Made by a program: the position numbers and the translations under genes. From the NCBI GenBank assembly GCA_026389455.1, contig JAPLHV010000068.1, forward strand, positions 1-37,645: a stretch of DNA of 37,645 nucleotides, read 5' to 3'. The notes under the pieces were generated by a model that saw only the letters and a program-made list of their open reading frames with translations, had not been told where the DNA came from and ran no database searches. Below, piece after piece: positions 18,771-30,950 of this stretch (position 1 is the stretch's first letter; every line of letters begins with the position of its first letter). This DNA is from Coprothermobacterota bacterium (lineage in GTDB: Bacteria; Caldisericota; JANLFM01).

Positions 18771-19507
18771 TGGAAGAAGACACCCTGCCGGGGGCTGTCA
18801 AGCTGCCGGGGGCTGTCAAGCTGCCGGGGGCTAGTAGGGGCGACGCATGCGTCGCCCCTGCGCAGGCTGTGGAGTTGCTCGAGGAGCTCCCCTCGAGTGA
18901 AGCAAAAGACGACAGCGCCGCCGGCGAAGCTCGGCCCATCGACCAGGAACGGATCCAGCGAGCTGTGCGGGAGATTTTGGAAGCTATTGGCGAAGACCCC
19001 GAGCGGGAAGGGTTGCGCCATACCCCTGGAAGGATCGCCCGGATGTATGCCGAGTTCTTTTCCGGCAGTGAAGAGCAAGCCTTGCAACAGCTCGCTGTCG
19101 GTTTCAGGGAGCCGCACTCGGAGATGATCCTGATACGAAATATCGCTTTCCACTCGATTTGCGAACACCATCTGCTTCCCTTTTCAGGTTGCGCCCACGT
19201 TGCCTACATCCCACGGGGGAAGATCGTCGGACTTTCCAAGATTGCCCGCACGGTGGACATCCTGGCTCGTCGCCCGCAAATTCAGGAACGTTTGACTTCG
19301 CTCATCGCGGATGTACTGGAACGAGGGCTTGACCCTATGGGAGTGGCGGTGGTAGTGGAAGCTGAGCATCTGTGCATAGTCATGCGGGGAGTTAAGAAGC
19401 CGGGAAGCTTCGTCACCACCTCCGCCTTGCGTGGCGGCTTTCGCACCAACCCGGCAACCCGTGCCGAATTCTTTTCGCTGGTCGCCTCCGGGCGGGAGAG
19501 ACTCTGA
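18770..19507 (+). CDS. folE: GTP cyclohydrolase I with repeat-derived N-terminal extension
   Basis: The 245-residue protein carries the whole FolE core from about residue 58: [28 protein letters not shown] with the zinc ligands Cys131 and His134, [18 protein letters not shown], and [17 protein letters not shown] with Cys202. It makes dihydroneopterin triphosphate, the entry to folate and also to queuosine. FolE usually starts only a few residues before the core. Here residues 6-17 ([12 protein letters not shown]) are encoded by the 18-base tandem repeat, and the next dozen by a 24-base palindrome. The ATG is preceded by GAGGAA inside ftcD. Confidence 0.93.
18787..18834 (+). repeat. 18-base tandem repeat array within folE
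   Basis: Two full copies of GCCGGGGGCTGTCAAGCT (18787-18804, 18805-18822) and a partial third (GCCGGGGGCTAG, 18823-18834) follow ACACCCT. They are translated in frame as LPGAVK repeats. The unit differs from that at 660-731 in three positions (GTC-AAG-CT against ATC-GAG-TT). Confidence 0.92.
18836..18859. repeat. Perfect 24-base palindrome within folE
   Basis: AGGGGCGACGCA (18836-18847) is the exact complement of 18848-18859. It directly follows the repeat array and encodes part of the non-conserved FolE extension (SRGDACVAP). It belongs with the 351-371 palindrome to a GTAGGGGC...GCCCCTAC-like class. Confidence 0.9.
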
Positions 19508-22873: not shown

Positions 22874-24583
22874 ATGAGCAAGCCCTTCCCGGTCCTTGTC
22901 GGGGCCAGCACCGATCCTGGCCAGCAAAAAGTTAACGAGGATGCCTTCTACATCTTTGAGAACCGCGTTTCGCCAAAGAACCCACTCCTCTTGGAGGGGC
23001 TCTATGCGGTGGCTGATGCCGATAGTCCGGACGCCCGAGGTGACGCCGCCTCCCGTCTCGTGCTGACCACAATTGCCCAGAAAATGGAACCCATCCTGGG
23101 ACATGAGGAAGGGTCTCTGCTGCGCAGCCTCCAGGAGGGAATCGAGGAAGCCCACCGGCGCTTGCAAGAATTGGCTCGTCACGAAAACTGGCGGAACATC
23201 CGCGTCTCCCTGGCTTGCGTCCTGTTGATCGGAACTCATCTAGTCTATACCTCGGCGGGGAGTTGTTCGATCTTTCTCCTGCGCGATGATGAGCTTCGCG
23301 AACTGAGCCACACCGCCCCCTTGGTCCAGGGACAAGAAGTGCTTTCGCCGGCCTTGGGTGAAGAAGGTTTTCGCACTGATGTCTTCGAAGTTCGCCTGCG
23401 AGAAGGGGATAGTCTACTTCTTGCCACGGACGGGTTAGTGGAGCGAGTTCGCTACCGCGACCTGGCGGAGGTTCTTCACTGGAGCCTTTCCCCACAAGCG
23501 GCCGGCGATCGGCTGCTTTCACTTGCAGTGAGGGCTGGGAGCCGTGAAAACATGACCGCTCTGGTGCTGGACATCCAGCCGTCTCGGCATGGCAACAGCA
23601 ACTGGTGGAAGATTGCCCTGGGGTTGCTGGCAGTCTTGGCCGTAGGGTTCGCCATCACCTTCATCCTGCTGCAGAGGCGAAGCCCCCCGTCGGAGACGCC
23701 AAGCTCTAGCGCCAGCTCCTCCAGCGAAGCCTCCAGTGAATCCCTGAGCGCTCGCTACATCTTCCTTTCCGGCTTGCAGGATCCCTACGCTTTGCTCCAA
23801 GTGGGAGATATATTTTATGTTCTGGACAATGGGCAGAAAAAAGTCTTGGCCTACACCAGCAATGGTGAGCCGGTGGAATCCTTCGACGGTGTATTGAAGG
23901 AAGCCGAGGCTCCCTGCGATTTGGTAGAGGGATCTACCGTCCTCTTCGTGTTGGATGCAGCGGGTAAGATCTTCGCCGTCTCGGTGCCTGACGGCACTGT
24001 GGAGACGGTGGAAATCGACATGGGTGAAAAGGGTTCCCTCTCTTCGCCCCGGGCCATCGCCTTTGATGGATCCTATTATTACATCGCCGATCGCGGCAAT
24101 GACCGGATCGTTTATTTGGATCGCAACTTCAGCTACGCCGGCGAGTATGGCGGCTTGGCGGACGGGAAACCGCTGCTGGAGAAACCCAACGGTCTGGCCG
24201 TGGACGATGCCGGCAATCTCTACGTCAGCCTGAAGGACGCTCACCAGGTAGTCAAACTGGACCCAAATGGACAAGTGATCGCTCGCGCTTCTACCGAGGC
24301 TACTTCGATCGGCATTTACGATGGGCCGGCGGACCTTGCCCTAACCGCCAACCAGCAACAGGTATTAGCGCCGGAGATGTCCCTGGACAAGGTTCTGGTC
24401 TATGATGCCGAGCTGAATTTACAGTACAAGGTCGGACGCGAGCAGTTGCCCGGCGCCAACTTCCGCGACCCGAAGAGTGTCTTTGTTTCAGGACAGGCCC
24501 TTTACGTGGCTGGCGGATCGAGTGAAGACGGGCAGGGGACTGTCTGGCGAATCCCTTGGAACCTGGTCCTCGGTACCCCCTAA
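22874..24583 (+). CDS. Membrane PP2C-like phosphatase fused to an NHL-type beta-propeller
   Basis: The 569-residue protein starts directly after the nadE stop. Residues 5-235 are a PP2C-type phosphatase domain: QQKVNEDAFYIF (Asp23), LYAVADADSPDARGDAAS (Asp48, with the usual DGMGG loop changed to DADSP), LLLATDGLVERV (Asp186) and SRENMTALVLD, where Glu225 replaces the usual Asp of the D-N motif. One membrane helix follows (about 245-266), then a Ser-rich linker (270-292), then an extracytoplasmic domain of about 275 residues with repeated NHL-like blades (YIADRGNDRIVYLDRNF, NGLAVDDAGNLYVSLKDAHQ split here). This layout suggests an outside sensor controlling a cytoplasmic Ser/Thr phosphatase. 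The altered metal loop leaves activity open. No kinase gene is in the window. Confidence 0.85.
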   Translation: MSKPFPVLVGASTDPGQQKVNEDAFYIFENRVSPKNPLLLEGLYAVADADSPDARGDAASRLVLTTIAQKMEPILGHEEGSLLRSLQEGIEEAHRRLQELARHENWRNIRVSLACVLLIGTHLVYTSAGSCSIFLLRDDELRELSHTAPLVQGQEVLSPALGEEGFRTDVFEVRLREGDSLLLATDGLVERVRYRDLAEVLHWSLSPQAAGDRLLSLAVRAGSRENMTALVLDIQPSRHGNSNWWKIALGLLAVLAVGFAITFILLQRRSPPSETPSSSASSSSEASSESLSARYIFLSGLQDPYALLQVGDIFYVLDNGQKKVLAYTSNGEPVESFDGVLKEAEAPCDLVEGSTVLFVLDAAGKIFAVSVPDGTVETVEIDMGEKGSLSSPRAIAFDGSYYYIADRGNDRIVYLDRNFSYAGEYGGLADGKPLLEKPNGLAVDDAGNLYVSLKDAHQVVKLDPNGQVIARASTEATSIGIYDGPADLALTANQQQVLAPEMSLDKVLVYDAELNLQYKVGREQLPGANFRDPKSVFVSGQALYVAGGSSEDGQGTVWRIPWNLVLGTP

Positions 24584-24590
24584 AGAAACC

Positions 24591-24644
24591 AGCCCCCGGC
24601 AGCTAGACAGCCCCCGGCAGCTAAAAAGCCCCCGGCAGGGTGAT
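24591..24644 (-). repeat. 18-base tandem repeat array upstream of the malic enzyme
   Basis: Read on the plus strand the units are AGCCCCCGGCAGCTAGAC (24591-24608), AGCCCCCGGCAGCTAAAA (24609-24626) and the terminal type AGCCCCCGGCAGGGTGAT (24627-24644). It fills most of the 87-base gap between the phosphatase stop and the GTG of the malic enzyme, just before the ribosome site. Confidence 0.93.
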
Positions 24645-24670: not shown

Positions 24671-26005
24671 GTGGACAAGAAAGAACTGCTGGCTAAAGCC
24701 AATAAGCCATCCGAAGAGGCTATGCGTCTTCACCCCTTTTACCGCGGCAAGATCGAAATGGCGCCGAAGCGCTGTATCCGCTCGGTGGAAGACTTCGCCA
24801 TTTGGTACACCCCCGGAGTGGCTGCCCCTTGTAAGGCGATCCAGAAAGACCCCGAGCTGGTCTACGAATACACTAACAAATGGAACACAGTGGCGGTGAT
24901 CTCGGACTGCACCAGGGTCCTCGGCCTGGGCGACATCGCTCCCGAGGCGGGCTTACCGGTGATGGAAGGGAAGGCTCTCCTCTTCAAGTACCTGGGCGGC
25001 GTGGACGCCTTCCCGCTGACCCTGGACACCAAAGACCCCGCCCGCTTCATAGACATCGTGAAAGCATTGCAACCGGCCCTAGGAGGCGTCAACCTGGAGG
25101 ATATAGCCCAGCCCAAGTGTTTCGGCATTCTCGACCAACTGCGGCAGGAGATGCGCATCCCGATCTGGCATGACGACCAGCAAGGCGCCGCCGCCGTCAC
25201 CCTGGCCGGGCTGATCAACGCCTTGAAGATCGTCGGCAAGCCGCTGGGGGAGATCCGCTTGGTCATGGTCGGCGCCGGCGCCGCAGGTTTGGCAACCTAC
25301 CGCGTCTTGCGGGCGGCCGGTTTGAAGCCGGAACAAGCTGTCTTAGTGGACGAGCACGGTATTCTGGGGCCCTGGATGAGCGAGCTGGAGGGTGAAAACC
25401 CGACTCTTTTCACCAGCCTGCAAGGGACCAACCCGGAGCGACTTCACGGCGGCATCGAAGATGCGATGCGCGGCGCCGATGTCGTCATCGCCTACTCCAA
25501 ACCCGGCCCCGATACCATCGCCCCGGCTTGGATCGGCCGCATGAGCAAGGATCCGATCCTCTTCGCTTGCGCCAACCCGGTCCCTGAGATCTGGCCTTGG
25601 GATGCACACGAGGCCGGCGCCCGGATCGTGGCTACCGGCCGCTCCGACTTCCCAAACCAAGTGAACAACTCATTGGGTTTCCCCGGTATCTTTCGCGGCG
25701 CACTGGATGTACAGACCCGCGCCATTTCCGACGAGATGTGCATCGCCGCGGCAGAAGCCTTGGCTGCCTCGGCCGAGCGGAGCGGCCTGCGCGAGGACCG
25801 CTTGATCCCCACCATGGATGACTGGACGGTTTTCGTCGAAGAAGCCGTAGCAGTCGGGATGAAGGCCGTCGAACAGGGTCTAGCCCGCCTTGCGCTCAGT
25901 GAGGAGGAGCTTCGGGGGCAAGCCCAGCGAATCATTCGTCGGGCGAGAAGGGAAACGGAGGTCTTGGCGCGGGAAGGGCTCGTCCCGTTGCCCCCGGCGG
26001 AGTAA
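24671..26005 (+). CDS. Malic enzyme (oxaloacetate-decarboxylating malate dehydrogenase, short form)
   Basis: The 444-residue enzyme has WYTPGVAAPC with the catalytic Tyr region, TRVLGLGDIAPEAGLPVMEGKALLFK (split as TRVLGLGDIAP and GLPVMEGKALLFK), PIWHDDQQGAAAVTLAG with metal-binding Asp residues, VMVGAGAAGLA as the Rossmann loop, and ATGRSDFPNQVNNSLGFPG. It lacks the phosphotransacetylase-like C-terminal domain of long MaeB. It converts L-malate to pyruvate and CO2 with NAD(P) reduction; the coenzyme cannot be told safely. GTG start behind AGGAGAGGAG. It stands first in the run with fumarase and the downstream glycosyltransferase/deacetylase genes. Confidence 0.93.
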   Translation: MDKKELLAKANKPSEEAMRLHPFYRGKIEMAPKRCIRSVEDFAIWYTPGVAAPCKAIQKDPELVYEYTNKWNTVAVISDCTRVLGLGDIAPEAGLPVMEGKALLFKYLGGVDAFPLTLDTKDPARFIDIVKALQPALGGVNLEDIAQPKCFGILDQLRQEMRIPIWHDDQQGAAAVTLAGLINALKIVGKPLGEIRLVMVGAGAAGLATYRVLRAAGLKPEQAVLVDEHGILGPWMSELEGENPTLFTSLQGTNPERLHGGIEDAMRGADVVIAYSKPGPDTIAPAWIGRMSKDPILFACANPVPEIWPWDAHEAGARIVATGRSDFPNQVNNSLGFPGIFRGALDVQTRAISDEMCIAAAEALAASAERSGLREDRLIPTMDDWTVFVEEAVAVGMKAVEQGLARLALSEEELRGQAQRIIRRARRETEVLAREGLVPLPPAE

Positions 26006-26008
26006 ACG

Positions 26009-26851
26009 GTGCGGGAGGTCGCTGTCTCACTGCTGCGGGATGCTGTTCGGGACCTCTGCCTGGAGGCCAATGCAGTCCTGCCGGACGATACCCTGCAAGC
26101 CTTGGAGCAGGCGCTGGTTGAGGAAACATCACTGCGCGGTCGCTCCATCCTGGAGGAGATCTTGGCTAACGACCATCTAGCAGCCAGTTGCCGGCTGCCG
26201 GCCTGTCAAGACACGGGGTTGGCCATCCTCTTTCTGGAGCTGGGGCAGGATGTTTCCCTGGTTGGAGGCGATCTGTGCCAGGCTATCAATGAAGGGGCGC
26301 GTCAGGGCTATCGTCGGGGATACTTGCGCAATTCGGTCTCCAAGGATCCGCTGCGGCGGGCCAATAGTGGCGACAATACACCGGTCGTGCTGCATGTGGA
26401 AGTGGTCCCAGGCGATTCCCTACGGCTCGTCCTCCTTCCAAAGGGCGGGGGGGCGGAGAACGCCAGCGCACTGTCGATGTTGACTCCCGCCAGCGGCTGG
26501 GAGGGGGTGCGAAGCTTCGTCCTAGAGCAGGTCTGTCGTGTCGGCCAGGGCGCCTGTCCTCCGTTGGTGCTGGGGGTGGGGGTGGGCGGCTCCTTTGAAA
26601 GCTGCGCTTTTCTGGCCAAGAAGGCCTTGCTCCGCACCCTCAGCAGTTCGCACCCGGATCCCCAGGTGGCTGCTTGGGAGGGCGAATTGCGGATGGCGAT
26701 CAACGACCTCGGCATCGGGCCGATGGGCTTGGGAGGACGAACCACTGCCCTTTCAGTGACCATCGAAGTGGCTCCCTGCCACATCGCTTCTCTGCCTGTG
26801 GCCTTGAACCTGAACTGCCACTCACACCGGCGCCGGAGCGTGATCTTATGA
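26009..26851 (+). CDS. Fumarate hydratase, class I, alpha subunit
   Basis: The 280-residue protein matches the N-terminal half of oxygen-sensitive Fe-S fumarases and tartrate dehydratase alpha: RLPACQDTGLA (Cys66), LRNSVSKDPLRRANSGDNTP, LLPKGGGAENASALSMLTPA, GQGACPPLVLGVGVGGSFES (Cys183) and GPMGLGGRTTAL. A cysteine near the end (NLNCHSHRR, Cys270) would be the third [4Fe-4S] ligand. It hydrates fumarate to L-malate; L-tartrate dehydratase is an alternative that sequence alone does not exclude. GTG start three bases after the malic enzyme stop. The stop overlaps the beta subunit (ATGA). Confidence 0.92.
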   Translation: MREVAVSLLRDAVRDLCLEANAVLPDDTLQALEQALVEETSLRGRSILEEILANDHLAASCRLPACQDTGLAILFLELGQDVSLVGGDLCQAINEGARQGYRRGYLRNSVSKDPLRRANSGDNTPVVLHVEVVPGDSLRLVLLPKGGGAENASALSMLTPASGWEGVRSFVLEQVCRVGQGACPPLVLGVGVGGSFESCAFLAKKALLRTLSSSHPDPQVAAWEGELRMAINDLGIGPMGLGGRTTALSVTIEVAPCHIASLPVALNLNCHSHRRRSVIL

Positions 26852-27414
26852 AAACCACCTCTCTGCACACTCCCCTCACGGAAGCCGACTTGCTGCCTCT
26901 ACAGGCTGGGGATCGGGTGCTCCTCAACGGGCGCCTCTACACCGCCCGCGACATCGCTCACCAACGCCTGGCTGCCGTGTTAGCCCAGGGGTTCCCCCCA
27001 CCATTCCCATTGGAAGGGTCGGTGATTTACTACTGCGGCCCTTCGCCGGCGCCGCCAGGTCAGGTCATCGGGTCGGCCGGCCCAACCACGGCGAGCCGCA
27101 TGGACCCCTATACCTCAGCCCTGTTGGCGGCCGGAGTGAGGGCAACCATCGGCAAGGGGCCGCGCTCTCCGGCTGTACAACAAGCGATGGCCCAATACCG
27201 CGCCATCTACCTAGCGGCGACAGGCGGCGCCGGCGCACTACTGGCTCAAACGATCATCACCGTTGAGCTCGTAGCTTACCCAGAATTGGGGCCGGAGGCT
27301 ATATACTGTTTGCAAGTTGTCGATTTTCCAGCAATCGTAGCCATCGACCTGGCTGGCCGAGATTTGTACCAGGAGGTCCGGCAGCAAACGGTTTGCGGTG
27401 GTGCGGAATGCTGA
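26848..27414 (+). CDS. Fumarate hydratase, class I, beta subunit
   Basis: The 188-residue protein matches the C-terminal half of class I fumarases: LQAGDRVLLNGRLYTARDIAHQRL (split), VIYYCGPSPAPPGQVIGSAGPTTASRMD (split as VIYYCGPSPAPPGQ and GSAGPTTASRMD), AGVRATIGKG, YLAATGGAGALLAQTI and a C-terminal VVDFPAIVAIDLAGRDLYQE. It completes the active site with the alpha subunit. The ATG overlaps the alpha stop and the stop overlaps the next ATG by seven bases, so all are coupled. Confidence 0.93.
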   Translation: MKTTSLHTPLTEADLLPLQAGDRVLLNGRLYTARDIAHQRLAAVLAQGFPPPFPLEGSVIYYCGPSPAPPGQVIGSAGPTTASRMDPYTSALLAAGVRATIGKGPRSPAVQQAMAQYRAIYLAATGGAGALLAQTIITVELVAYPELGPEAIYCLQVVDFPAIVAIDLAGRDLYQEVRQQTVCGGAEC

Positions 27415-28046
27415 CCTTGCCCAACTGGGTGCGACAGATCACGGTCGGCTCCCTGCAAACCAACGCCTACCTGCTGGAACTGGGAGAAGTCTATTGGCTG
27501 ATCGATCCAGGCGGGGAGGGGAACCGCCTGGCTGCTCTTTTGCCGCGCGAGAAGGATGTAACGGTGTACTTGACTCATGGTCACGCCGACCACTGGGCCG
27601 GCTTGCGCTCCCTCCAGCTGCATAGGACTGGCTTGCGCTGGTTTTACCCACGGCAGGACGAAGAGATGATCACCGGAGTAGACCGGCGGTTCCTCTCTTT
27701 CCTTGGCGAGGATTTCCCTGAGCTCACCGGCCTACCGCTGGAGGCGCCGCAGGAGTTGGATGCCGGGGGGAGATGTTTTTCCTTTCTTCATTTCCCCGGC
27801 CACACCCCCGGGCACTTGGCTATCTTCTGCGAAGACTGCCCCCGCGGAGGTCTGCTCTTTGCCGGCGACCTCCTCTTTCGAGGGGGAGTAGGTCGAACCG
27901 ACTTGCCCGGCGGCTCCTTCCGACGCCTCCAGGAGAGCCTCTCTCGGCTCTTGAAGCTGCCGGGAGAGACGGTCGTCTGCCCTGGTCACGGCCCTCTTAC
28001 TACCATCAATGCAGAGCGAGAGATGATCGAGGATTTATTGGCGTGA
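27408..28046 (+). CDS. Metallo-beta-lactamase-fold hydrolase (glyoxalase II-like)
   Basis: The 212-residue protein has the dinuclear zinc motif THGHADH (His57, His59, Asp61, His62), FPGHTPGH, LFAGDLLFRGGVGRTDLPGG (GD-x-LF-x-x-x-x-GR-x-D, as in glyoxalase II-like proteins) and CPGHGP. Such enzymes cleave thioesters or act on persulfides or lactones. Its ATG overlaps the fumarase beta stop and its stop overlaps the glycosyltransferase GTG (GTGA). In view of the BshC-like gene downstream, a role on thiol adducts is attractive but is inference. Confidence 0.88.
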   Translation: MLTLPNWVRQITVGSLQTNAYLLELGEVYWLIDPGGEGNRLAALLPREKDVTVYLTHGHADHWAGLRSLQLHRTGLRWFYPRQDEEMITGVDRRFLSFLGEDFPELTGLPLEAPQELDAGGRCFSFLHFPGHTPGHLAIFCEDCPRGGLLFAGDLLFRGGVGRTDLPGGSFRRLQESLSRLLKLPGETVVCPGHGPLTTINAEREMIEDLLA

Positions 28047-28738
28047 GCGACCTGATCTTGATGCCCTGTTACAACGAAGCGAAGACGCTCCCCGGGGCGG
28101 TGGCCGAAGTACTGCGCTGGCGAGGGGAGGCCGACGTGCTGGTAGTCGATGACGGCTCGCAGGATCAGAGCCTTCAGTTGCTGGCCGGATTCCCGGTGGC
28201 CTTGCTGCGTCATTGCAATAACGAGGGCTATGGGCAAACGCTGATAGATGGTTTCGCCTACGCTGCTACCCACCGCTACCAAGCGTGCGTCACTTTGGAT
28301 TGCGACGAGCAGCACGAGCCGCACCTGATCCCCCGGTTTTTGGCTGAGCTGTCCGACTGCGATGTGGTCTCCGGCAGCCGCTACCTGGAGGCGAGCGAAG
28401 GGATTCCTCCACTCGACCGCTATCAGATCAATCAGGAGATCACCGAGTTGCTCCGTTCTCTCACCGGTCTCTCCTTGACTGATTCCTTCTGCGGTTTCAA
28501 AGCTTATCGCGTGGCGGCCTTGGATCGTTTGCAACTGGACGAGCCGGGCTACGCCTTCCCGGTGCAGTTCTGGATGCAAGCCGCTCGGGCCGGCCTGCGG
28601 GTCAAGGAGATTCCCGTCTCGCTAATCTATAAAAACTTCTGCCGAAGATTTCCGGGTTCCCTCAATACCCCGGAGATCCGCCGCCGTTACTACTTGCGCG
28701 TCATTGAAGAGGAGGCCAAGAAATGGCAAAAATCCTAG
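28043..28738 (+). CDS. Glycosyltransferase family 2 (dolichol-phosphate mannosyltransferase-like)
   Basis: The 231-residue protein has a GT-A fold: LILMPCYNEAKTLPGAV, VLVVDDGSQDQSLQLL, NNEGYGQTLIDGF, VTLDCDEQHEP in the place of the D-x-D metal motif (DCDEQH is the DPM1-type form), DVVSGSRYL, and DSFCGFKAYRVAAL. There are no membrane helices. The start is GTG at 28043 with GAGG ten bases before; ATG at 28061 would remove six residues from the first strand. It overlaps the deacetylase by 16 bases. The donor and acceptor are unknown; polyprenyl phosphate is the usual acceptor in the DPM1 group. Confidence 0.88.
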   Translation: MSDLILMPCYNEAKTLPGAVAEVLRWRGEADVLVVDDGSQDQSLQLLAGFPVALLRHCNNEGYGQTLIDGFAYAATHRYQACVTLDCDEQHEPHLIPRFLAELSDCDVVSGSRYLEASEGIPPLDRYQINQEITELLRSLTGLSLTDSFCGFKAYRVAALDRLQLDEPGYAFPVQFWMQAARAGLRVKEIPVSLIYKNFCRRFPGSLNTPEIRRRYYLRVIEEEAKKWQKS

Positions 28739-29406
28739 CCCTCGGGGCACACCCCGATGATGTCGAGATCGGCATGGGGGGAACCATCCTGGCCCTCAAG
28801 GCAGCGGGGCACACGGTTGCCATCTGTGACCTGACCAATGGGGAGCCAACGCCGATGGGCACGGTGGATGCCCGCCTGGCCGAGAGCCGGGAGGCAGCCC
28901 GCCTGTTGGGCGTAGACCAGCGCTGGACCCTGGACCTGCCCAATCGCTACCTGCGCGACACGGTGGAGGCTCGTGTCAAGGTGGCCGAGGTGATCCGGCG
29001 CTTCCGCCCGGATGCTCTCTTTATGCACTACTGGAGTGACGCCCACCCTGACCACGTGGCCGCCAATCAATTGGCTGAGGCCGGCCGCTTCTACGCCAAG
29101 TTGACCAAGACCGACTGGGAGGGCGAGCCTTTCTTTCCGCCCCGCATTTATTGTTTCTTCTCCAACCACTTCCGCGCCGTCTTCCAGCCTGACTACATTC
29201 ACGATATTTCCCCCTACATGGAGCAGAAGCTGGAAGTCCTGCGAGTTTACCGCACCCAGTTCAACCCCGAACGGAGCAACCTGGCCGTCTTCGACCAAAT
29301 TAAGGCGATGGGGATGTGGTGGGGCAACCGTGGCCGATTTCAGTTCGGCGAGCCCTTTGCCAGCCGCGAGGAGATCGGTTTACGAAACCTGGAGGCGCTC
29401 TTGTGA
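28723..29406 (+). CDS. PIG-L family deacetylase (BshB-like)
   Basis: The 227-residue zinc deacetylase has LALGAHPDDVEIGMGGT (His10, Asp12, Asp13), LTNGEPTPMGT, RLAESREAARLLGV, and WSDAHPDH with His108 and His111. ICDLTNGEPTPMGTVD and the length resemble BshB1, which deacetylates GlcNAc-malate in bacillithiol synthesis, and MshB-type enzymes. ATG start in the end of the glycosyltransferase gene behind a GAGGAGG. The GTGA overlap with the next gene couples it to the BshC-like protein, which supports a role in a related pathway. Confidence 0.9.
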   Translation: MAKILALGAHPDDVEIGMGGTILALKAAGHTVAICDLTNGEPTPMGTVDARLAESREAARLLGVDQRWTLDLPNRYLRDTVEARVKVAEVIRRFRPDALFMHYWSDAHPDHVAANQLAEAGRFYAKLTKTDWEGEPFFPPRIYCFFSNHFRAVFQPDYIHDISPYMEQKLEVLRVYRTQFNPERSNLAVFDQIKAMGMWWGNRGRFQFGEPFASREEIGLRNLEALL

Positions 29407-30797
29407 TTATTCCCCCGGGCAACCGGGAGGCGCGGTTAAATCCAGCTCTGGAGATTTGGCCACACCTGGTGGAAGCGAACCGGCGTCTCCCCCTCGCCCC
29501 GATGTTGGAGGATCTGCGAGCGCAAGCCCGCCGAGAGTTCGCCGATTTGACCGGCCTCTCCCCCTCCCAGCCATTGGTGATGACCGGCCACCAGCCTGAG
29601 TTCGTCCACCCCGGCGTATGGATGCGTTTTCTTTTGCTGGACTTGCTGCGCCAACGTTGGGGGTTGGAGGGTGCAGCCTTTGCCGTGGACTCCGACCTGG
29701 CCGACGAGCCGGCCGTAGAGGTTCCCTTTCTCTGCCGTGGCGAGTTGTTGCGGCGGCGAGTGGAGCTGGCCACAGAGGGTGGCGCCACCTACGAGAGCCT
29801 CCTTTCGCCCTCCGCCGAGGCTTGGCGCCGTTTCTGTAAAGTCATTGAGGAGGCATTAGCTTGTCCGGCAGGCGCTCGCGCTCGTTTGGCCTTTCGCCGC
29901 GTTGGCTCGTTCATTCCGCCGGCCGGCAGTTTCCCGGCCTTCTCGGTGGCGCTTCGGCGTTTCTGGGAGGGAACACCCAGCTACCCAGAGATTCACCTCT
30001 CTGTAATAACTCGAATTCCCAGCTTCGGTCGCTTTTTCCTGCTATTGGCAGAACAGGCCCTCTCTTTTGCCGTAACTCTAAATACAGCGCTGGCCGGGTG
30101 GCGGGTACGACACCGGGCTCGCTCCACAGCGGTCCCCTTCCCCGACCTGGAGATCGGACCGGGGCGAGTAGAGTTGCCCTTCTGGTGGGAAAAGGAGGGA
30201 AGACGTTCACCTCTTTTCCTCAAGGAAGGGCAACTATGGATCCAGGATCAACCCTTGGGGACCATCAAGGAGGCGCTGGCGGCCGCTGCAATACGTCCTC
30301 GGGCGGTAAGCCTGACCCTTTTCATGCGCCTTTGCCTGGCCGACCTCTTCTTGCACGGGGCTGGTGGAGCAGACTATGAGGAGGTCACTGACGAGGTCAT
30401 TCTCCGCTTCTTCCATGCCACCCCCCCAGCTTTCGTCTCAGCGACGCTGACCCTTTTTCTACCGGGTGAAGAACCGTCGGCTGGATCTCTCAAGCGTTTG
30501 CTGCGCGATCTGGAGCAACGGCCGGAGCGTTACCTGGCCAATTCGCAGCGAGCCGCGCTGATAGCGGTGATCACTCAGAAATCAGCCACGATGTCTTCGG
30601 GCAAGTTGGACAGAACCGGTTACCGGGCGCTGCAAGCTGCCAACGAAGGACTGCGCCGCCCACTGCGGGGCCAGATCACCGCTTTGGAAAAGCGCGTTGC
30701 TGATGCCGAGTCAGCCCGCGACGTACTTTCCTTCCGCGGCTACCCCTTCTTCTTCTTCCAAACTGAGGAGCTGCGCGAACTACTGGCAGCCCTTTGA
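29403..30797 (+). CDS. Conserved protein, possible distant BshC relative
   Basis: The 464-residue protein is not canonical BshC, yet the layout is similar. PLVMTGHQPEFVHPGVWMR (about 58-76) parallels BshC's V-V-x-GQQ-x-GL-x-TGPLY, followed by AAFAVDSDLADEP where BshC has a strand ending in E-D-H-D. Near 305-340, RAVSLTLFMRLCLADLFLHG and GADYEEVTDEVI parallel BshC's R-P-x-x-x-x-x-L-x-P-x-x-A-x-x-x-GP-G-E-x-x-Y-W. The end FRGYPFFFF resembles its last conserved stretch. BshC adds cysteine to GlcN-malate. GTG start at 29403 with GGAGG 8 bases before. I recall similar proteins beside PIG-L genes in other phyla but no characterised one. The link to BshC is by pattern only. Confidence 0.55.
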   Translation: MIIPPGNREARLNPALEIWPHLVEANRRLPLAPMLEDLRAQARREFADLTGLSPSQPLVMTGHQPEFVHPGVWMRFLLLDLLRQRWGLEGAAFAVDSDLADEPAVEVPFLCRGELLRRRVELATEGGATYESLLSPSAEAWRRFCKVIEEALACPAGARARLAFRRVGSFIPPAGSFPAFSVALRRFWEGTPSYPEIHLSVITRIPSFGRFFLLLAEQALSFAVTLNTALAGWRVRHRARSTAVPFPDLEIGPGRVELPFWWEKEGRRSPLFLKEGQLWIQDQPLGTIKEALAAAAIRPRAVSLTLFMRLCLADLFLHGAGGADYEEVTDEVILRFFHATPPAFVSATLTLFLPGEEPSAGSLKRLLRDLEQRPERYLANSQRAALIAVITQKSATMSSGKLDRTGYRALQAANEGLRRPLRGQITALEKRVADAESARDVLSFRGYPFFFFQTEELRELLAAL

Positions 30798-30888: not shown

Positions 30889-30950
30889 ACCCGCAGCAGC
30901 CTGTTGACAGCACGCAGCAGCGAGTTGACAGCCCGCGGCAGCGAGTTCTG
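30889..30950 (-). repeat. Diverged 21-base tandem repeat related to the 18-base family
   Basis: On the plus strand: a 20-base first unit (ending CTGTTGAC), AGCACGCAGCAGCGAGTTGAC without its last base within 30909-30929, and AGCCCGCGGCAGCGAGTTCT from 30930. The unit is three bases longer than elsewhere, and the end GTTCTGTGTT matches the flank of the array at 660-731 read on the minus strand. It lies in the 235-base gap between the BshC-like gene and pdp; no gene is seen in this gap. Confidence 0.8.

Follow-up and report, generated by a model that had tools for sequence, protein, structure and literature searches.

Pathways that have been characterized with a glycosyltransferase, an LmbE-type deacetylase, and a ligase resembling the class I synthetases, in that order, yield cysteinyl-glucosamine thiols. 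In bacillithiol synthesis these are BshA, a retaining family 4 glycosyltransferase (GT4), BshB, and the ligase BshC, while in mycothiol synthesis MshA, also a GT4 enzyme, places N-acetylglucosamine (GlcNAc) on an acceptor other than malate, and deacetylation (MshB) and cysteine ligation by MshC, which resembles cysteinyl-tRNA synthetase (CysRS), follow. Here we analyze a 37,645-nucleotide stretch of a Coprothermobacterota genome (contig JAPLHV010000068.1; the window), in which genes for a family 2 glycosyltransferase (GT2; 28043-28738), a PIG-L/LmbE deacetylase (28723-29406), and a BshC-like protein (29403-30797) follow one another on the + strand. These three genes are established as a real, widely conserved unit, present in genomes that lack bshA and bshC. 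We put at about even the chances that the trio is a three-step pathway to a thiol of the form Cys-GlcN-X (GlcN, glucosamine), built like those for bacillithiol and mycothiol, with an X that is probably not malate.

A profile of the BshC-like protein finds members in other phyla, and scanning a single genome for each GTDB species gave at least 543 candidates, from which 80 loci were kept, mostly from metagenome-assembled genomes and covering about ten phyla; 28 control loci were compared with them. In 72 of the 80 loci the gene directly upstream of the BshC-like one encodes the GT2, and the full order GT2, PIG-L, BshC-like is found in 53, while a GT2 or PIG-L gene is present in 0 of the 28 controls. 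Three of the eight loci without an upstream GT2 gene are at contig ends (L086, L104, and L116) and five are not (L082, L094, L107, L137, and L141). PIG-L is adjacent to the BshC-like gene in none of the 19 Planctomycetota loci; two planctomycete-like genomes (G188 and G325) and one more (G257) have an unlinked BshB1-type PIG-L that falls inside the trio PIG-L group. The BshC-like protein occurs, sometimes in divergent form, in 133 of 294 sampled species of the phylum of G188, taken to be Planctomycetota, and in about ten other groups. Recurrent neighbors other than the trio genes are lineage specific across the 80 loci.

The same association is seen without reference to gene order. A clear BshC-like protein is encoded in 15 genomes of a 386-genome sample, and the GT2 clade, set by a gap in score (15 genomes at 293 to 362 bits, G317 at 259, and the next at 169), is present in all 15 compared to 1 of the 371 others (Fisher p=4e-26, with kinship of the genomes uncorrected and the link spanning many phyla). 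In the extra genome, G317, the contig ends inside a PIG-L gene right after the GT2 gene. Pairwise distances of the three trio proteins also correlate (r of 0.84 to 0.87; 0 of 2000 permutations), a correlation that partly reflects shared species history. The original prediction, made from the window alone, had grouped the trio with malate enzymes; the grouping of the GT2, PIG-L, and BshC-like genes goes far beyond chance, and that of the malate enzymes does not. Two weak profile matches were not counted as carriers: G359 has nothing of the trio near its match, and G142 encodes a divergent BshC-like protein with the motif TSHQP (L181:5092-6489) and no member of the GT2 clade. The G142 gene adjoins neither a GT2 nor a PIG-L gene and is perhaps another branch of the BshC-like family.

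Canonical BshC (PF10079) was found in 0 of the 15 BshC-like genomes, and none of them has a BshA (TIGR03999) over the cut-off of 273.7, the best match in the source genome reaching 106 bits; the TIGR03999 search does detect BshA in the controls B. subtilis, Thermus, and Deinobacterium. Across the whole sample, canonical BshC occurs in 71 of 386 genomes. Since the trio co-occurs and canonical bshA and bshC are missing, neither of the outcomes that the original prediction named as contrary to it, a complete canonical set elsewhere in the genome and a trio never seen together in other genomes, was found. One family holds both a trio genome (G199, L040) and a genome with canonical BshC (G336, L180), so that one pathway may have displaced the other there. 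In G138 and G278 (L177:6604-10628 and L178:2627-8462) a GT2 gene adjoins canonical BshC, together with PIG-L and a GT4-like gene. We rejected this arrangement as an intermediate because the GT2 is DPM-like and the GT4-like gene was read by eye as BshA.

The deacetylase, of 227 residues, bears out its earlier assignment as a BshB-type enzyme. It scores 185.1 bits on the BshB1 equivalog model TIGR04001 (cut-off, 182.5), and the cut-off is also exceeded by all 10 further trio deacetylases tested; trio proteins score 185 to 217 bits and canonical ones 244 to 270. A BshB1-type deacetylase is present in 15 of 15 BshC-like genomes, the one in G106 being partial and below the cut-off at 126 bits. The MshB model, in contrast, gives only about 26 to 43 bits against a cut-off of 224, and the nearest solved relatives are TT1542 and B. 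subtilis BshB1. Within the BshB1 side of the family the trio proteins form their own group (support 83/95), set apart by invariant Pro42-Thr43-Pro44, Asn74-Arg75, Arg122, Lys126, and His149. The catalytic HPDD and HPDH motifs are intact and the equivalent of BshB Arg53 is kept in 67 of 67 trio deacetylases. At the position of BshB Arg109, however, 60 of the 67 have Ala, whereas 10 of 12 canonical proteins have Arg or Lys (register confirmed against 2ixd). Docking to BshB and the mutants R53A, R53K, R109K, and H110A point to a role for these residues in the binding of GlcNAc-malate (PMC4101496), and the loss of the Arg109 equivalent in most trio proteins therefore argues against malate as the aglycone.

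The BshC-like protein (464 residues, translated from a GTG start that overlaps the PIG-L stop) has no Pfam or NCBIfam match, and a PDB sequence search with the family found nothing. A structure predicted for a relative from G270 (mean predicted local distance difference test score [pLDDT], 92.8) matches BshC 4WBD as its only PDB hit at E<=0.001 (E=2.1e-13, probability 1.00), with tyrosyl-tRNA synthetase next and neither MshC nor CysRS within that threshold. In a joint alignment, the invariant motifs TGHQP, DxD, and HGxGGxxY align with TGQQ, SDHD, and GGPxExxY of BshC. The earlier label of BshC-like is thus supported by the fold of the modeled family member.

The GT2 enzyme (PF00535) is a 231-residue, soluble protein with a GT-A fold and a DxD motif, modeled with a pLDDT of 95.4 as a bare domain with no added membrane part. 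Its nearest PDB folds are the polyprenyl-phosphate glycosyltransferases ArnC, DPMS, and GtrB, followed by GpgS. GpgS (GT81; Foldseek TM about 0.75) is soluble and uses a small anionic acceptor, but it has no match to the trio GT2 in a sequence-profile search at E<=1e-8, and it belongs to a CAZy family other than GT2 and is retaining.

Taken together, these enzymes could make a cysteinyl-glucosamine compound in three steps. The GT2 enzyme, in the place of BshA, would move GlcNAc from a nucleotide sugar onto an acceptor X with an anionic group and, as it should invert, would give a beta-linked product, unlike the alpha-linked product of BshA. The BshB1-type deacetylase would then free the amine to give GlcN-X, a step for which homology is strong, and the fold and gene linkage of the BshC-like protein suggest that it would ligate an amino acid to this amine, cysteine being the most likely one. 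The final product would be Cys-GlcN-X, a low-molecular-weight thiol whose X is probably not malate, and the pathway would stand in for bshA and bshC in carrier genomes. The sugar, X, the cysteine, and the role as a thiol are inferred. A fuller form of the proposal, to which we give slightly less than an even chance, is a further cysteinyl-glucosamine thiol route with a divergent BshC and an inverting GT2 that acts on a new acceptor, one that bears a phosphate or is anionic in some other way. The beta-linked product of this route would be the chief thiol of low molecular weight for many Planctomycetota, Coriobacteriia-type Actinomycetota, Nitrospinota, Atribacterota, Armatimonadota, and other lineages. 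The original prediction left two options for the product. We favor the new compound linked to an aminosugar, which we take to be probably a thiol; bacillithiol made through another first step is unlikely because the malate neighbors are confined to one genus and Arg109 is mostly lost.

Several observations weigh against the Cys-GlcN-X pathway. The structural match to BshC has a template modeling (TM) score of 0.5 and a root mean square deviation of 10 Å over the whole chain, and because the sequence profiles hardly relate the two families (hhalign E=0.015, probability 3%), the link to BshC rests on predicted structure; homology from sequence alone was tried and set aside as too weak, and the structure match settled the question instead. 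Even for BshC, cysteine ligation in vitro was still to be demonstrated when the enzyme was reviewed in 2015 (PMC4360819). The non-overlap of canonical BshC and the BshC-like protein (p=0.08) is only suggestive alone, and a minority of trio deacetylases, that of G199 for example, retain the Arg109 equivalent. The bacilliredoxin BrxA is absent in trio genomes but also in most of the canonical genomes tested, so it was discarded as an uninformative marker of a bacillithiol-like product. Finally, the likeness of the GT2 enzyme to polyprenyl-phosphate glycosyltransferases would also fit a lipid acceptor, and the DPMS residues Arg117 and Arg131 have their counterparts in Arg113 and Arg126, neither of which varies among 20 sequences.

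This last point is the core of the main competing explanation, in which the GT2 enzyme would make polyprenyl-phosphate-GlcNAc, PIG-L would deacetylate it, and the BshC-like protein would aminoacylate the amine to give a donor for envelope modification. Both DPMS arginines lie in the acceptor-phosphate site, where Ser135 is needed for phosphate positioning (PMC5526996), but Ser135 aligns with an invariant Asn in the trio GT2, and the acceptor loop and the C-terminal region cannot be aligned. Since the arginines are kept and the serine is replaced, we suggest that the acceptor is anionic and bound in a changed way. A lipid acceptor is further disfavored by the bare GT-A domain, by the similar fold of the soluble GpgS, and by the grouping of the deacetylase with BshB1, whose substrate is soluble; nor does any further gene, such as one for a membrane partner, recur beside the trio across phyla in the 80 loci, an unlinked partner not having been searched for. 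We regard the lipid-linked aminosugar as unlikely, though the strongest of the alternatives.

A less probable reading keeps the soluble GlcN-X and has the BshC-like protein add another amino or carboxylic acid to it, giving a cofactor, an osmolyte, or a natural product. The BshC-like motifs do differ from those of BshC, and the amino-acid specificity of this fold is unreadable from sequence, but the characterized pathways with the same order of enzymes make thiols, and the wide spread of the trio across lineages and its changing gene neighborhoods point to a metabolite of general use. Slightly more doubtful still is bacillithiol itself, a thiol of 398 Da, with GT2 replacing BshA and malate as the acceptor. 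The BshB1-type deacetylase and the BshC fold are shared with that pathway and malate enzymes adjoin the trio in the source genus, but the BshC-like family is very distant from BshC, the Arg109 equivalent is lost in most trio deacetylases, malate enzymes are not conserved neighbors, and the beta anomer expected from an inverting GT2 is not that of bacillithiol.

The malate enzymes belong to a run of seven genes that was described correctly in the original prediction, all on the + strand, in the order given, and overlapping from fumarase alpha onward. Genes for malic enzyme (24671-26005), class I fumarase alpha (26009-26851) and beta (26848-27414), and a metallo-beta-lactamase (MBL)-fold, glyoxalase II-like hydrolase (PF00753; ~27408-28046) precede the trio. 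A gap of 3 bases separates malic enzyme from fumarase alpha, and the overlaps from there to the BshC-like gene are 4, ~7, 4, 16, and 4 bases. Among five members of the source family, malic enzyme and fumarase are found at the trio only in G000 and G001, which belong to one genus; they are absent from the trio locus in G002-G004 and were not found within reach in any of the 80 named loci. In the four other family genomes the order is NadE, a PP2C/NHL protein, and then MBL, GT2, PIG-L, and BshC-like, and in three of these members genes that look succinyl-CoA synthetase-like, an assignment made by eye on the first residues, lie downstream of the BshC-like gene. The MBL gene is upstream of GT2 in five of five family members, and no named locus outside the source family was found to have it at the trio, so it is an accessory of that family; no BshC-like protein was found in the other sampled genomes of the source phylum. 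The conserved system is therefore the GT2, PIG-L, and BshC-like genes only, and the adjacent malate genes are a local accident. We accordingly abandoned the proposed coupling, in which fumarase supplied malate, on the strength of this comparison and of the loss of the GlcNAc-malate-contacting Arg in most trio deacetylases, and the role given to the MBL enzyme on the product or its adducts fails with its family-only linkage. An operon in which fumarase and malic enzyme feed the sugar acceptor and the MBL enzyme acts on the product draws on the tight gene overlaps in the source genus, but as a general mechanism it is contradicted by the synteny above and has next to no chance of being right, a role limited to that genus remaining conceivable.

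The trio was not described in the open-access literature searched, subscription journals being largely outside that search. The families and folds of the parts are known; what the searched literature lacks is the combination, the GT2 enzyme in the place of BshA, and the BshC-like family. Gene surveys score a genome as bacillithiol positive only if BLAST finds bshA, bshB, and bshC (PMC6282198, PMC12719100), so they would miss organisms with the trio. If the proposed pathway holds, an uncharacterized thiol would be present across much of bacterial diversity, and a second, distant BshC-type enzyme would be available for working out the ligation mechanism. As the locus is defined by three genes and has cultured carriers, the question is directly testable; Blastopirellula marina DSM 3645 and Planctomycetes bacterium Pan216, for example, both encode the GT2 and the BshC-like protein.

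Further features flank the seven genes in the window. A gene at 22874-24583 encodes a protein in which an NHL-like propeller comes after a PP2C/SpoIIE-type phosphatase domain, and its position between NadE and the MBL/GT2 block is kept in all five members of the source family. Three short tandem arrays (659-725, 18785-18832, and 24590-24638), of 2.7 to 3.7 copies each, share the 18-base unit TGCCGGGGGCTNTCNAG or its reverse complement and are a dispersed repeat family; the last of them falls in the gap that separates the PP2C/NHL gene from malic enzyme. A separate 21-base tandem repeat of 2.7 copies (30892-30947) is located between the BshC-like gene and a gene for pyrimidine-nucleoside phosphorylase.

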